Part shown: in pieces, positions 6,464 through 53,030 of the stretch
How positions within the stretch are numbered: position 1 is the first letter of the stretch
Layout: the number at the start of each line of letters is the position of its first letter
Source of the DNA: Verrucomicrobiia bacterium
GTDB lineage: Bacteria; Verrucomicrobiota; Verrucomicrobiia; Opitutales; Cerasicoccaceae
NCBI GenBank assembly: GCA_030425485.1
Contig: JAUIAM010000001.1
Span: 1 to 64,000 of the forward strand
Direction of reading: 5' to 3'
Length of the DNA: 64,000 bases
The notes under the pieces: generated by a model
Database searches by the model: none
Told to the model about the DNA's origin: nothing
The model's input: the letters and a program-made list of their open reading frames with translations, nothing else
Program-made: the position numbers and the translations under genes

Positions 6464-6856
6464 GGGCGTGTGGTCGAAACCAAACGCCAATCTTGCGGCA
6501 CGCTTCTGCGATGCGCAATGCGCGAGTGGGATTATCTTTATCGCTTGTGCGCCGAGGTCTTGGTTCCTGTTGTAAAAATAATTTAACCGCAGAGACGCAG
6601 AGCGCATAAAGACTCCCAAGCGCATGCTGGCAGCAAGGCGTTTGGCCCAATTCTTGTTTGAGTGACTCAGACCTGTTCCGCTCTGCGTCTCTGCGGTTCA
6701 GTAAAGTGTGCTACTCAGATAGAAGAGTACCTCTTCGCCAATCGCAGTGCATTAGACAGACTTGAACGCCGTGCGTTGAGGCGCAGCCCCTCAGAGCGGT
6801 GAAGCTGGCTCAGCTTCCTTAGGCGAAGCCCCTCAATCAGATTAAACACCGTGCGC
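6464..6856. other. 393-base gene-free region filled by repeats
   Basis: Lies between the start of the MFS gene and the stop of nadA. It contains a 20-base perfect inverted repeat (6585-6604 and 6679-6698) and a partial copy of the hairpin-rich dispersed repeat (about 6766-6860). The open frames here are repeat translations and are not genes. The MFS promoter should lie in 6464-6580, but I could not identify it. Confidence 0.7.
6585..6698. repeat. inverted repeat pair, MITE-like
   Basis: AACCGCAGAGACGCAGAGCG at 6585-6604 is perfectly inverted at 6679-6698, with a 74-base spacer. The arms belong to a motif (CGCAGAGACGCAGAG type) seen scattered through many environmental bacterial genomes. A related arm recurs at 13451-13466. 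No ORF or transposase lies between the arms, so this could be a non-autonomous element or a long-loop hairpin. Confidence 0.75.
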
Positions 6857-6860
6857 TTAG
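6766..6860 (+). repeat. dispersed hairpin repeat, copy B (partial)
   Basis: Contains GAAGCTGGCTCAGCTTC (6801-6817, 7-bp stem, 3-base loop), then a GCCCCTCAATCAGATTAAAC segment and a tail whose TTA at 6857-6859 is the nadA stop codon on the minus strand. A second, degenerate copy of the same tail (gaacgccgtgcgttgag) lies at 6763-6780, so the right end appears duplicated. Matches copy A at 18486-18548 almost base for base. Confidence 0.75.
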
Positions 6861-12812: not shown

Positions 12813-13229
12813 ATGGAAAAAACCCTCATTCTTCTGAAACCCGACTGCATGGAGCGCAAGCTCTGGGGCCTCGTGCTCGACCGCTTCGCCAAGGTTGATT
12901 TCGACATCGTTGCCTGCAAGATGCTCCGCCTGGACGAAGCCCTGCTCAAGGAGCACTACGCGCACATTGCTGATCGTCCGTTTTTCCCGGAAATTGCCAA
13001 CTTTATGGGCTCGCGCCCGGTTATCGCAATAGTACTCAAGGGGCCGGAAGCCATCGCGCGCGTCCGTTCGCTGCTCGGCCCGACCGACTCCAAGGCTGCC
13101 CCCGCAGGCACCATCCGTGGTGACATGGGCGCGGACAAGATGCTGAACCTCGTACACGCCTCCGACAGTCCGGAAGCCGCCGAAGCCGAGATCAAGCGCT
13201 TCTTCGGTGACGACCCGATCTTCGACTAG
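12813..13229 (+). CDS. ndk: nucleoside diphosphate kinase
   Basis: 138 residues from ATG 12813 (MEKTLILLKPDCMERK), the family's normal start and length; the longer frame from 12702 is upstream sequence. Transfers the gamma phosphate of NTPs to NDPs through a phosphohistidine. The active-site histidine is H115 in NLVHASDS, and RGDMG and the FFPEIANFMGSRP substrate loop are present. The family usually reads NLIHGSD, so the alanine is a minor variant. Downstream lies a repeat-filled gap and the convergent ispF. Confidence 0.94.
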   Translation: MEKTLILLKPDCMERKLWGLVLDRFAKVDFDIVACKMLRLDEALLKEHYAHIADRPFFPEIANFMGSRPVIAIVLKGPEAIARVRSLLGPTDSKAAPAGTIRGDMGADKMLNLVHASDSPEAAEAEIKRFFGDDPIFD

Positions 13230-13587
13230 GTTGCACCCGCCAGCATGGAGTGGCTACGCCCCTACAGAAGCTGAGCCAGCTTCACTGCTCTGAGGGGCTT
13301 TGCCCCAGTCGCTGGTCCGGCCGGACCTCCCGTTGGTCGCTACCCCGAGTGTGGGATGGTGCGCTAGGCCGTGAGCCAAATTCATTATAAAATGCAGATG
13401 GCCGAAAAAAGGCCGAGGGCATTGCCGGGGATTCAGGTTGAACCTGAAGCTCTCTGCGTCTTTGCGGCTTTGCGTGAAATAATTTATACAAGAACTAAGC
13501 TAGCAGAACACTAGCTCAGGATAAGACTTCTCTTTTTCAGCGAGTGATGCGGGAGCATCACAGGTGCAGGACTGTGTCCTGCTGCTG
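13230..13587. repeat. composite repeat island (copy C plus insert)
   Basis: 358 bases with no gene, between convergent ndk and ispF. The left part carries, inverted relative to copy A, GAAGCTGAGCCAGCTTC (13267-13283), AGGGGCTTTGCCCC (13293-13306) and the GGTCGCTACCCC/GGTGCGC segment (13335-13364). The right part holds GATGCGGGAGCATC (13546-13559) and GCAGGACTGTGTCCTGC (13566-13582), which runs into the ispF TAG stop. Between them are a 17-base palindrome TTCAGGTTGAACCTGAA (13432-13448), a CTCTGCGTCTTTGCGG arm (13451-13466) of a widespread environmental repeat, and GCTAG/CTAGC (13499-13515). It looks like a dispersed element split by a second, unrelated repeat. Confidence 0.7.
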
Positions 13588-16638: not shown

Positions 16639-18408
16639 ATGGCTGATAGAAGAAAAAAAGAAGTCGTCGTCCAAGGCGTTGCCGCTTCTCCTGGGGTAGC
16701 GCATGGCGAAGTCTTTGTCATCCATCAGCGCGACCTGGAGATTCCGCGTTACGATTTGGCCGTTTCGCACATCCCGGGCGAAATCGCCCGCTTTGAGCAA
16801 ACCCTGCTCGAAACGCGCAAGGAGATCATGACCCTGCGGACCGAGGTGGCGACCCGTCTCGGTGAGGGCGAAGCCAAAATCTTCGATGCCCACCTCATGG
16901 TGCTGGAAGACACCGCCCTGATCGAGGAAACCATCAGCCAGGTCGAGGCGACGAAGAACAACGTCGAGCACTGCTACTCCGAAGTCGCCCAGCGTTACAT
17001 CGACGCCTTTAGCGCGATGGAGGACGAGTACATCAAGGAGCGCATGACGGACGTGCGCGATGTTACTCGCCGCATGCTGCACAACCTCCTCGGCCATCAG
17101 GGGGAGAACCTTTACGAAATGACCTCGGAGCGCATTGTGGCCTCCGAAGATGTCTCGCCCTCGGACGCCGCTCAGCTCGAAGACAGTAAGGTCATCGGTG
17201 TGGTGACCGATGCAGGCAGTCGCACCAGCCACGCGGTCATCATGGCCCGTTCGCTGCGGATTCCCGCCGTGGTCGGCCTGCACGACATCACCCGCCGCCT
17301 CAAGACGGACGACTACGTGCTGGTCGATGGCTACGACGGGCTGGTCATCATCAATCCTTCGGAAAAGACACTCTTTCGCTACGGTGAGCTGAAAAAAGAG
17401 CGCCTCAATATCCAGCGCACCTTTGACAAGGACAGCCTGCTTCCGGCCAAGACCAAGGACGGCACCACGTTGCCCGTTTTCGGTAACATCGGCGGCCCAG
17501 AGGACTGCGAGGGGGTTATGGTCAATGGCGGGGAAGGCGTCGGCCTGTTTCGCACCGAAGCTCTTTTTATGAGCGGTGATCGCTTTCCCACCGAGGAGGA
17601 GCAGTTCCAGGCTTACCGTCGCTCGGTCGAGGCCGTCCAGCCGCATCCGGTGGTCATCCGTACGCTCGACTTGGGCGGGGACAAAACCGTCAACAGCTAT
17701 TACTTTACCGAAGAGGAGGAAAACCCCTTCATGGGTTTCCGGGCCATCCGCTTTTGCCTCGACCATCCGGACGTCTTCAAGGAGCAACTCCGCGCCATTT
17801 TGCGGGCCAGTGCTTACGGCGACGTGCGCATCATGTACCCCATGATCAGCAGTGTGCAGGAGCTCATTCAGGCCAACAAAATCCTCGAAGAAGCCCGGCA
17901 GGAGCTCCGTGACCGTCAGGTCGCCTTTGACGAAAATACGCCCATCGGCAGCATGATTGAGATCCCCGGCGCGGCCATCGTTTCTGACCTGCTGGCCGAG
18001 CATTGCGATTTTTTCAGTATCGGTACGAACGACCTCATCCAGTACCTGCTGGCCGTGGACCGTGTAAACGACCGTATTGCCCACCTCTACATGCCGAATC
18101 ACCCGGCAGTCATCCGCACCATCGATCATGTCATCAAGACGGCCAAGAAGCACGATGTCGAAGTCGGCATCTGTGGTGAGATGGCAGCGGACCCGATTTA
18201 CGTGCCGCTGCTTTACGGCATGGGCGCTACGGACATCAGCGTTACCTCTACCTCGTTGGCCGAGATTAAGTACATGCTGCGTCAGATGAAGCTCAAGGAC
18301 GCGCAGGAGCTGGCCGCCAAGGTGGTCAAACTCAGCGACCCTGAGGAAATCTACATGACGCTGACCGCCTTTTACGCCAAGCTCATGGGCGAGCTCTTCA
18401 AGAACTAG
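16639..18408 (+). CDS. ptsI: PTS enzyme I (phosphoenolpyruvate-protein phosphotransferase)
   Basis: 589 residues from ATG 16639, with a GGGAG Shine-Dalgarno eight bases upstream; a TTG at 16624 is less likely. Transfers phosphate from PEP to HPr. N-terminal HPr-binding helical domain, then the phosphohistidine in GSRTSHAVIMARSL (usual GGxTSH; here SRTSH) near residue 203. The C-terminal PEP barrel carries LFRTEALFM, RTLDLGGDK, MIEIPGAA, SIGTNDLIQY and GICGEMAADP. No HPr, HPr kinase or EII component is nearby, so it may serve a regulatory PTS, as is common in this kind of bacterium (inference). The TAG stop abuts repeat copy A. Confidence 0.94.
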   Translation: MADRRKKEVVVQGVAASPGVAHGEVFVIHQRDLEIPRYDLAVSHIPGEIARFEQTLLETRKEIMTLRTEVATRLGEGEAKIFDAHLMVLEDTALIEETISQVEATKNNVEHCYSEVAQRYIDAFSAMEDEYIKERMTDVRDVTRRMLHNLLGHQGENLYEMTSERIVASEDVSPSDAAQLEDSKVIGVVTDAGSRTSHAVIMARSLRIPAVVGLHDITRRLKTDDYVLVDGYDGLVIINPSEKTLFRYGELKKERLNIQRTFDKDSLLPAKTKDGTTLPVFGNIGGPEDCEGVMVNGGEGVGLFRTEALFMSGDRFPTEEEQFQAYRRSVEAVQPHPVVIRTLDLGGDKTVNSYYFTEEEENPFMGFRAIRFCLDHPDVFKEQLRAILRASAYGDVRIMYPMISSVQELIQANKILEEARQELRDRQVAFDENTPIGSMIEIPGAAIVSDLLAEHCDFFSIGTNDLIQYLLAVDRVNDRIAHLYMPNHPAVIRTIDHVIKTAKKHDVEVGICGEMAADPIYVPLLYGMGATDISVTSTSLAEIKYMLRQMKLKDAQELAAKVVKLSDPEEIYMTLTAFYAKLMGELFKN

Positions 18409-18548
18409 CGGCAGGACACGGTCCTGCACCTGTGATGCTGGCGCACCACCCATACTCAGGGGTAGCGACCAACCCTCAGTGTGGTGAAGCTGGCTCAGCT
18501 TCCGTAGGGGCGTAAGCCCCTCAATCGGATTAAACGCCGCGCGTTTAG
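18409..18548 (+). repeat. dispersed hairpin repeat, copy A (reference copy)
   Basis: Fills the whole gap between convergent ptsI and queE. In order: GCAGGAC-acg-GTCCTGC (18411-18427), a TGCACCTGTGATG link, a GCGCACCACC/GGGGTAGCGACC segment (18441-18470), GAAGCTG-gct-CAGCTTC (18486-18502), AGGGGC-gtaa-GCCCCT (18506-18521), then CAATCGGATTAAACGCC and a GCGTTTAG tail. The left end starts one base after the ptsI TAG; the right end contains the queE TAA. Related copies lie at 6766-6860, 13230-13587, 33199-33310 and 52870-52904. Confidence 0.85.
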
Positions 18549-19297
18549 GTGCCGCGGGAGTTGCCGTAGAGGTGGACGTGGAGCCTGTCGCCAAAGCGAT
18601 AGCCATGCTCCAGGCAGAGGGGGGCGAGCCAGGTGGACGAGTCGCGCAGGGTGGCCGAGTCCGTCCCGCAGGGCATGAGCAGGATGCGCTCGCGGGGGAT
18701 GCTGTAGCGTTCGCGCAGGGTATCGATTTCGCTCAGGTCGGCTTGGTCCGCCACGACGAACTTAAACCACGCCCGCTCGCAGCCGGCAAAGAAGGCCAGT
18801 GCCTCGGGCTTCTCGCGTTCGGCTTCGGTGTTGCGTGAGTTGGTCAGCTTGGGGGAGACGTTGTACTGGGCCACGAGGGCGTCCAGCTCAGGGGGCGGGA
18901 CGAGTGTGCCGTTGGTTTCGATCTCAAAGCGGCAGCTCGGATCGCGTTCGCATAGGAGCGTAGCGAGTTTTGCCAGGTCCTTGCCCTGAATGAGCGGTTC
19001 GCCGCCAGTAAAGATGATGTTGCGCGCGGTGAAGCCGAGTATCCGCGCGGCCACGTCCTCGATGGAGAGGGTGAGGATTTCGTCCTCACGGCGAAATTTG
19101 CGGTAGGCGGGATCGGCCTCGTTGGCGTGAGGGTAGGGGGTGCCTTCCCAGTTCCAAGTATAGTCGGTGTCGCACCAGTGGCAGTGGAGGTTGCACAGCG
19201 ACAGGCGTGCAAAAACGCTCGGCACGCCCACGCTAACGCCTTCGCCTTGCAGGCTCTGGAAAATCTCCGGCCCCTCGCCGTCCCTGGCCAATTTCAT
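18545..19297 (-). CDS. queE: 7-carboxy-7-deazaguanine synthase (radical SAM)
   Basis: 250 residues from ATG 19297 (MKLARDGEGPEIFQSLQGEG); the frame is open to 19657, but that part overlaps tig. Rearranges 6-carboxytetrahydropterin to CDG in queuosine/7-deazaguanine synthesis. The [4Fe-4S] motif is CNLHCHWCDTDYTW (C35, C39, C42) and EGVSVGVPSVFARL is the family N-terminal block; FTGGEPL and ETNGTL follow. The rest of the queuosine pathway is not in the window. The stop codon lies in the tail of a dispersed repeat. Divergent from tig with a 142-base gap. Confidence 0.93.
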   Translation of the reverse strand: MKLARDGEGPEIFQSLQGEGVSVGVPSVFARLSLCNLHCHWCDTDYTWNWEGTPYPHANEADPAYRKFRREDEILTLSIEDVAARILGFTARNIIFTGGEPLIQGKDLAKLATLLCERDPSCRFEIETNGTLVPPPELDALVAQYNVSPKLTNSRNTEAEREKPEALAFFAGCERAWFKFVVADQADLSEIDTLRERYSIPRERILLMPCGTDSATLRDSSTWLAPLCLEHGYRFGDRLHVHLYGNSRGT

Positions 19298-33198: not shown

Positions 33199-33310
33199 GG
33201 CAGGTAGGGCAACGTCCTGCACCTGTGATCCTTCGGTTTGCCCATTGGGGGTGACCTGGGTGAGTTTCAGGAGTTCCCGTGCTTAATAAAAAACCGGATC
33301 AAACGCCGAG
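33199..33310 (+). repeat. dispersed hairpin repeat, copy D (degenerate)
   Basis: Fills the 100-base gap between the convergent aminotransferase and rsmA and runs into rsmA. Recognisable parts: GGCAACGTCCTGC (33208-33220, half of the first hairpin lost), CACCTGTGATCC, and the right-end tail CCGGATCAAACGCCGAGTGTTTG (33294-33316), in which TCA 33299-33301 is the rsmA stop codon. The middle hairpins of copy A are not recognisable. Confidence 0.65.
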
Positions 33311-34126
33311 TGTTTGCTCCAGGCGGAGCCAGGCCGAGAGCGGGAGGGCTTCCGGGCGCAGATTGGCGGAAAGGCCATCGGCTTCAAGTGCCTCAAGCCA
33401 TGCCATCAGGCGGGGATCTTTCGCCTGGCGAGCCAGCGAACCGATCTGCTTGCGGCGCTGGGTGAAAAATTTGCGCATGAGGGCGCGAGTCTCGGCGGAA
33501 AAGCGTATGGGGGAGTCAAGGCGCTCGAGGTGGAGGAGAACCGAATCGATGTCGGGCGCGGGGTAGAAGCAACTACGGGCCACGGCGTGACCGGGGCGTT
33601 TGCGGTAGGCTGCGGCCAGAAATAGGCTGACTGCGCCGAGGTTCTTGCCGCCGGGCTCAGCGGTGAAGCGCTCGGCGGCTTCCTTTTGGAGCATGAGCAC
33701 CATGCGCTCCGGCAGGGGGCCGGAGAGGATTTTCTCCATCCACGGAGTGGAAATGGCATAGGGGAGGTTGGCCACGATTTTGAACGGGCCTTCTCCGTCA
33801 AAGCCGGCGAGGGGAGCGTCCATCGCGTCGGCTTCGGTCAGGTGAAACGGCACGATGTCGCCGTGAATCTCGCGTTGGTAGGCGGCCAGGCGGCGGTCGA
33901 GCTCGACCGCGAATACCCGCGCGCCGCGCTGGAGCAGGCCAGCGGTCAAGGTGCCCAGGCCGGGGCCGACTTCGACCACGGTGTCACCAGCTTGCACCTG
34001 TGCCAGATCGAGCGATTTGCGGACGATGTTGGGATCGATGAGAAAGTTCTGGCCCAGCTTTTTGCTGGGGCGCAGACCGAGCTGATCGAGTCGTTCGCGG
34101 GTTTGGGAGGGCGTGAGCACACACAC
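33299..34126 (-). CDS. rsmA: 16S rRNA A1518/A1519 dimethyltransferase
   Basis: 275 residues. Dimethylates two adjacent adenines near the 3' end of 16S rRNA during 30S maturation. Seen: SKKLGQNFLIDPNIV at about 22-36, SAM site VVEVGPGLGTLT, and catalytic NLPYAIST; helical C-terminal domain with TQRRKQIGSL. Starts GTG-TGT-GTG, so translation could begin at either GTG (34126 or 34120). It lies 17 bases after the PiT-like gene on the same strand. The stop lies inside a dispersed repeat. Also known as ksgA. Confidence 0.95.
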   Translation of the reverse strand: MCVLTPSQTRERLDQLGLRPSKKLGQNFLIDPNIVRKSLDLAQVQAGDTVVEVGPGLGTLTAGLLQRGARVFAVELDRRLAAYQREIHGDIVPFHLTEADAMDAPLAGFDGEGPFKIVANLPYAISTPWMEKILSGPLPERMVLMLQKEAAERFTAEPGGKNLGAVSLFLAAAYRKRPGHAVARSCFYPAPDIDSVLLHLERLDSPIRFSAETRALMRKFFTQRRKQIGSLARQAKDPRLMAWLEALEADGLSANLRPEALPLSAWLRLEQTLGV

Positions 34127-52831: not shown

Positions 52832-53030
52832 GCGCGTACGCATTCACACCCGCTCATCGAGTGGGGGAACGAACGAAGCCCCTCAATGCAGTTTAATTAA
52901 GACGTAGCGGGAGCGTCTTTATATTATGGCTACGGATGACACAGATCTATGCGGATAGGCTAGAAATTATCTGTGAAATCTGCGGACATGATATTTCTAA
53001 ATGCACGCATGCGCTGAGGCGGATTCAGCT
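52832..53030. repeat. gap with dispersed-repeat fragments (copy E)
   Basis: 199 bases between the convergent cytochrome c and hldD genes. GAAGCCCCTCAATGCAGTTTAAT (52875-52897) matches the right half of copy A. AAGACG (52899-52904) and CGTCTT (52914-52919) form a 6-bp hairpin followed by TTATATTA, a weak terminator. ACACAGATCTATGCGGATAG (52940-52959) and ATCTGTGAAATCTGCGGA (52969-52986) are versions of a motif scattered in many environmental genomes. No gene seen. Confidence 0.55.

Follow-up and report, generated by a model that had tools for sequence, protein, structure and literature searches.

Mosaic arrays of short hairpin modules adjoin gene 3' ends in a genus of Verrucomicrobiia

In the window, by which we mean the whole stretch of 64,000 nucleotides analysed, ptsI and a queE-like gene converge on a gap that holds a mosaic array of hairpin modules (18409-18548, + strand). 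The array runs from the ptsI stop (TAG, 18406-18408) to the queE-like stop (TAA, 18545-18547, - strand), as an earlier sequence-only reading of this DNA had described. Along the + strand it comprises module M1a (18411-18432), a perfect hairpin at 18411-18427 followed by ACCTG; M1b (18432-18449), the second M1 hairpin, which has one mismatch in this copy and no T-run after it; a remnant of the M2 linker (GGGGTAGCGACCA..., 18459-18473), recognised by eye against full copies and not called by the module scan; M4 (18484-18502), with a perfect hairpin at 18486-18502; M3 (18504-18525), with a GTAG tag at 18504-18507 and a hairpin at 18506-18521; and M5 (18527-18547), whose perfect hairpin (18531-18547, 7-bp stem and 3-base loop) includes the queE-like stop codon in its right arm. 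In all, the array has four perfect hairpins and one imperfect one; the three perfect hairpins previously named (18411-18427, 18486-18502 and 18506-18521) were correctly placed, and the perfect hairpin 18531-18547 and the imperfect one at 18432-18449 had been overlooked. When 18409-18548 is folded, each strand beats 200 of 200 shuffles (z -3.3 and -3.5). Terminator-like sites were not called in 18409-18548, and the Rfam covariance models gave no match in the window at the gathering score and none at E<=1 for 18300-18700.

Three further arrays lie in the window, where copies had been proposed near 6766-6860, 13230-13587 and 33199-33310. The first (6799-6860, + strand) consists of a called M4 with degenerate M3 and M5 recognised by eye, the M5 arm carrying the nadA stop (6857-6859, - strand). 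The second (13230-13587, - strand) stretches across the gap between an ndk-like gene and ispF and holds an M7 remnant (by eye), M3, M4, M2 ... M1b and M1a; the ndk-like stop (13227-13229) also adjoins it. The third (33199-33316, + strand), between an aminotransferase-like gene and rsmA, has a degenerate M1a and an M5 that carries the rsmA stop (33299-33301). The stops of nadA, ispF, the aminotransferase-like gene and rsmA lie where they had been placed. A fourth proposed copy (52870-52904, + strand) is weak: it is a partial M3-like piece 38 nt past the stop of an ORF, in which part of one module is matched and which the module scan does not call. Among the genes named, curated cut-offs are passed by ptsI, nadA, ispF and rsmA, while scores stay under them for the genes termed queE-like, ndk-like and aminotransferase-like. 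Other degenerate intergenic repeats, CTCTGCGTCTTTGCGG...GTGAAA and ATCTGTGTGAATCTGCG..., occur in the window at 6670-6710, 13450-13480 and 52925-52995 and in loci L028, L041, L042 and L046; strings of this kind are presumably found in many phyla.

Searching the 3.81-Mb genome of the window (G000) with the ptsI-queE element gave 51 matches at E<=0.01, and the mosaic build was read from 37 matches and their flanks. We found 55 mosaic arrays composed of about eight hairpin modules of roughly 20-45 bases; they were collected from a sample and from what BLAST matched with a single element, so that arrays of only other modules are under-counted, and some of them are single-module. In M1, GCAGGAC-nnn-GTCCTGC is followed by ACCTG and by another hairpin, GTGATGC...GCATCAC; GTAG leads the M2 hairpin, M3 is GTAG-GGGC...GCCCC, M4 is GAAGCTGGCTCAGCTTC, M5 is AAACGC...GCGTTT, M6 and M7 are additional hairpins, and M9 is a longer palindrome. 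GTAG starts M2 and M3 in most of the copies read, with the qualification that the regular expressions required it; M1, M4, M5 and M7 lack a tag of this kind, be it GTAG or CGTC. Some arrays were enlarged by tandem duplication, spacers included, and repeat every 117 or 115 bases. The module expressions were composed after reading copies and their edges define the array edges, so distances are accurate to a few nt.

Our own script called genes in the window and in 40 further 20-kb stretches, together 864 kb with 715 genes, and in the regions around matches. Sampled intergenic DNA outside the window (103.6 kb) contained 14 hits of the module motif set, against 4 in five Markov copies summed. In the coding DNA of the 864-kb sample, a loose module scan gave no hits for M2, M2b, M4, M6, M7 and M9, two for M1b, three for M3 and one for M5. 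With up to 2 mismatches, M1a gave 18 hits in coding DNA (six times the length) and 9 in intergenic DNA, and its limit was therefore set to at most 1 mismatch. Exact 14-mer counts in the sample were too strict for degenerate modules, yet revealed other repeats: the M9 palindrome (GGTAGGGCTGCCTG...CCCTACC, for example at L166:3663-3688 and L175:10320-10345) and further exact repeats between genes, for instance AAAAAGACGCGAAAAGACCCTTTTCTACCG, which occurs in four regions. One additional pattern was tried and showed no excess over its control.

The M1 stems are kept paired. Across 49 copies from four genomes, cleanly delimited matches chosen by hand from 77 M1 copies, 97.1% of cells are paired and changes on both sides occur in 7 of 14 pairs; among 500 shuffles that pair count is reached twice and the other four measures never, and slid controls were also exceeded. 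This analysis covers M1 only, and no covariation is claimed for M5 since its loose expression yields 301 mostly chance hits.

The placement of the arrays is real and non-random. The neighbouring genes of the 55 arrays are convergent in 26 cases, tandem in 23 and divergent in two, with four at an edge; the expectation from intergenic length (n=51) is 5.9, 31.4 and 13.7, respectively. The convergent preference on which the sequence-only reading had staked its proposal of a dispersed repeat at gene 3' ends, adjoining or supplying stop codons, therefore holds (26/51 vs 5.9 expected). So does the adjacency itself: among 75 array-facing gene 3' ends, 33 overlap the array or are no more than 5 nt from its edge, against 11.2 expected under random placement in the gap, a count reached by none of 20,000 simulations, while 5' ends do so in 1 of 27 cases (1.5 expected). 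This distance test dropped the four edge arrays, and arrays adjoining tRNA genes are scored in it as far, tRNA genes being absent from the gene calls. In the sister loci, which were chosen for their matches, 24 settings are convergent, 24 tandem and three divergent. As a module stands at only 5 of 631 gene ends in the G000 sample (about 1%), the family is no general gene-end device.

Arrays also stand right after the CCA end of tRNA genes. A tRNA-Gln gene ends at L026:2027 with an M5 match from 2029, and a tRNA-Ser gene ends at L037:1917 with M5 from 1918; tRNA genes were also searched in six sister loci, where none was found. At L037:1903-2178 there is a 117-bp tandem repeat whose unit consists of the last 15 nt of the tRNA-Ser gene with CCA, followed by M5-M3-M2b. 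At L256:2000-2050, in the genus mate G002, M5 is joined to an apparent tRNA-Ser 3' fragment in a 4-kb locus where no tRNA gene was found, perhaps a remnant of an island integrated in a tRNA gene.

Modules that meet gene ends keep a fixed polarity and register. An array lies no more than 20 nt from 43 gene 3' ends; at these, M1a is co-oriented with the gene in 18 of 18 cases and non-M1 modules are anti-oriented in 23 of 24, while the 43rd end has M1b, which is palindromic and uninformative. Some genes end inside modules, namely in an M4 arm (GGAAGC-TGA), the M1 loop (GAC-TAA) or an M5 arm. At 53 ends, from G000 and sister loci, a module starts within 5 nt of the stop; a second module is in reach at 40 of them, and in 33 it begins 19-26 nt past the stop. 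The internal spacing of M1 is fixed, so the telling part is that M5-M3 and M7-M3 ends have the same register. For comparison, perfect-stem hairpins (stem >=6) past 628 gene ends of G000 start within the first 5 nt in five cases, similar to the level 75-100 nt away, and are commonest at 20-34 nt (18, 26 and 24 per 5-nt bin); in G001 and G003 the commonest distances are 20-44 nt and 30-49 nt, respectively. These distances place the second hairpin of the modules near the usual place of a terminator and the first where other hairpins are scarce. TAG stops are enriched at M1 (12/18, p 0.004; sister loci 8/15, p 0.04); the idea that M1 supplies the TAG stop was dropped, TAG also being found at 11 of 24 orthologous module-free ends.

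A run of at least four T follows M1b in 13 of 34 G000 copies (at least three in 24/34), compared with 4.4% (14%) in the control. As T-runs so often follow M1 in this genome, M1 looks like a terminator acting in one direction there. In G001-G003 the corresponding counts after M1 are 3/43 and 11/43, and by eye many sister copies have a further hairpin in place of the T-run. At non-M1 ends, inspection by eye found a T-run at 1 of 24 (C40:164463, 9 nt past the hairpin).

The repeat was present in four of the 36 genomes searched, G000 and its three genus mates, and in none of the other 32. Among 387 genomes of the phylum, a draw that left out G002, the exact M1 core occurs in five: G000 (16), G001 (23), G003 (13), G394 (3) and G248 (1). 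In G394, which belongs to another family of the phylum, three M1 cores stand right at TAG at similar gene ends (L262, L266), followed by a second hairpin. Collections of phages and plasmids gave no match to the repeat. A scan across phyla found the M1 core at no fewer than 80 loci, which include repeats in a Clostridia MAG, Magnetaquicoccus, Desulfovibrio relatives and gut Clostridia as well as apparent coding chance matches. Among the hairpins listed that have a co-oriented upstream stop in reach, few stand no more than 10 nt from it: 1/10 in the Clostridia MAG, 0/7 in Magnetaquicoccus, 3/9 in gut Clostridia, 0/2 in Desulfovibrio relatives, 0/4 in a Puniceicoccales MAG, compared with 5/8 in the genus mate JB024. 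Hairpin tails reading ACC are raised in the cross-phylum loci, which were selected for such a hairpin. Chains of hairpins with ACCYG-like linkers occur in the Clostridia, Magnetaquicoccus and Desulfovibrio relatives (L060-L139, e.g. L077, L067 and L072), with 19 specified M1-core bases in common. The M1 core across phyla may reflect common descent, transfer or convergence.

Orthologous counterparts in G001 and G003, 58 distinct ends in all, were obtained for 33 of those 43 ends in G000, the orthologues being best alignment scores and not reciprocal; 60 loci were made from the 94 matches listed. A recognised module is lacking at 50 of the 58, in the sense that no expression matched, and by eye some of these ends have hairpins or module-like pieces; C-terminus length is within 2 residues in 42 of the 50. 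One protein end can thus occur with and without a module across sister species, and the module is not required at those 50 ends. The remaining eight carry a module. Among unselected sampled ends of G001 and G003, 10 of 600 do so (odds ratio 9.4, p 5e-5); for convergent ends the count is 6 of 176 (p 0.008). In six of the eight the module type differs from that in G000. At the protein end ...RYPKHEWR-TGA, G000 has M5, G003 has M7 and G001 has M1, in every case no more than 2 nt from this stop. At the ptsI orthologue, G003 is without a module and G001 has M7 after an M1 fragment. An earlier comparison restricted to fetched sister loci, a small and selected set, had given 4/8 vs 8/37.

The reading that we favour, and consider probable by a modest measure, is a REP/BIME-like hairpin family at gene 3' ends, in which M1 is a 3'-end module, M5, M4 and M7 are protective, and modules spread and replace one another. 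It builds on what was observed: the position, the polarity, the paired M1 stems, the near-constant protein ends and the differing modules at some sister ends. The M1 end of an array adjoins the stop of a gene pointing the same way and the other end (M5, M4, M7, M6 or M3) that of an oppositely pointing gene, which gives the RNA a first hairpin module from about +1 past the stop and a second from about +19 to +26. M1 would then be the 3'-end module of its gene, with hairpin 1 protecting the end and hairpin 2 plus the T-run terminating transcription in G000. The M5, M4 and M7 hairpins would protect 3' ends without terminating, which REP hairpins can do (summarised in PMC13289151, in excerpt). Modules would spread and replace each other through a mobile or recombination process and persist mostly where they are harmless or useful as gene ends; an enzyme moving them was sought and none was found. 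Against this reading count the +1 hairpin, which could get in the way of the terminating ribosome, the ptsI-queE copy without a terminator-like site, the rarity of T-runs after sister M1 copies, the small share of gene ends with a module and the 50 of 58 orthologous ends at which none was recognised. Possible roles of the arrays as an mRNA 3'-end stabiliser and as an element docking at gene ends are not mutually exclusive.

Less probable is that these are plain selfish REP/BIME-type repeats with no gene-end function, which insert anywhere, are purged except at gene ends and have had the DNA between stop and repeat trimmed. The patchy occurrence of the M1 core, found in 5 of 387 phylum genomes and mostly in one genus, fits such repeats, as do arrays that grow in tandem together with their spacers and the 50 of 58 orthologous ends without a recognised module. 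However, uniform placement does not produce the pile-up at 0-5 nt, the end modules are strictly polar, and sister ends are re-occupied more often (8/58) than sampled ends (10/600), an excess that persists against convergent ends.

We regard it as rather unlikely that the family consists of GTAG REPs driven by a RAYT transposase that was lost or acts in trans. GTAG is the tag of the REP super-family, and GTAG REPs have been reported from the verrucomicrobium Opitutus terrae (PMC3733652, in excerpt); M2 and M3 are GTAG-led hairpins by eye, and matches to the RAYT domain (Pfam PF01797, Y1_Tnp) are common elsewhere in the order (8 of 13 genomes searched, G002 included). Against this stand the absence of GTAG from M1 and the result of the Y1_Tnp search in the genus, which gave no match in G000, G001 or G003 and four matches in G002, in three regions that are all without modules.

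More speculative still, and in our view improbable, is the idea of genuine docking at gene 3' ends, stops and tRNA CCA ends alike, where a process that needs no RAYT, and may act on RNA 3' ends, would put cassettes in place and swap them. If this were true, one gene end might bear M5, M7 or M1 depending on the species, with the protein unchanged.

It is very unlikely that the arrays are bidirectional intrinsic terminators between convergent genes, one of the options originally suggested. Their convergent preference and the hairpins formed by both strands speak for such a role, but it does not fit a T-run at only one of 24 non-M1 ends (by eye), a ptsI-queE copy without a terminator-like site, or tandem arrays (23) nearly equal in number to convergent ones (26). 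A DNA-level role, in which the arrays would take up positive supercoils where genes converge, follows a proposal made for BIMEs and gyrase and is about as doubtful: REPs do bind gyrase and sit between convergent genes (PMC1525189, in excerpt), in line with the convergent preference, but the exact adjacency to stops and tRNA CCA ends, the module polarity and the copies in tandem gaps would be left unexplained.

Among known systems, intrinsic (Rho-independent) terminators resemble the M1b hairpin in its place about 21 nt past the stop and in the T-run that often follows it in G000. They differ in that M1 forms a repeated family and brings an additional hairpin at +1, and T-runs are mostly missing in the sister genomes and at the other end modules. 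Like MITEs, the arrays are dispersed, non-coding and able to supply stops to genes; unlike MITEs, they are built from modules of about 20-45 bases that recombine. In the copies read by eye, neither shared terminal inverted repeats nor duplicated target sites were noticed, and the sister species are too diverged to offer base-level empty sites. The REPs of E. coli are likewise stop-proximal hairpins with a possible effect on translation or the mRNA 3' end, and an effect on translation is ascribed to those no more than 15 nt from a stop (PMC12306157, in excerpt, citing an earlier study). In 300 kb of E. coli K-12, however, no REP lies within 5 nt of the 16 gene 3' ends, against 33 of 75 here; 10 of the 16 have one within 20 nt and 12 of 16 at 9-22 nt, a small control in which the core motifs may fall short of the REP edge by one or two bases.

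The closest known kind is that of the GTAG REPs and BIMEs (Di Nocera 2013, PMC3733652; Tobes and Pareja 2006, PMC1525189; PMC2817692; all in excerpt), although none of the open-licence papers we found treats this module family. The modules are short, palindromic, multi-copy and intergenic, and M1 shows compensatory stem changes. With the known repeats, as far as the excerpts of PMC3733652 and PMC1525189 describe them, they share the mosaic arrays, the stems kept by paired changes, the location mainly between convergent or co-directed genes and, apparently, the GTAG-led hairpins, as read by eye in M2 and M3. They depart from them in an M1 end module without GTAG, in different end modules of fixed polarity, and in a first hairpin that often stands 0-5 nt from the stop. 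REP-type repeats near stops are already known. What sets this family apart is the GTAG-less end module, the polarity, the lack of a RAYT match in three of the four genus genomes, and a tighter docking that is often near exact, polar, and found at protein and tRNA genes alike. Across the sister species a gene end can be seen empty, with the same module or with another, so that targeting, exchange and an effect on the mRNA 3' end are directly testable.
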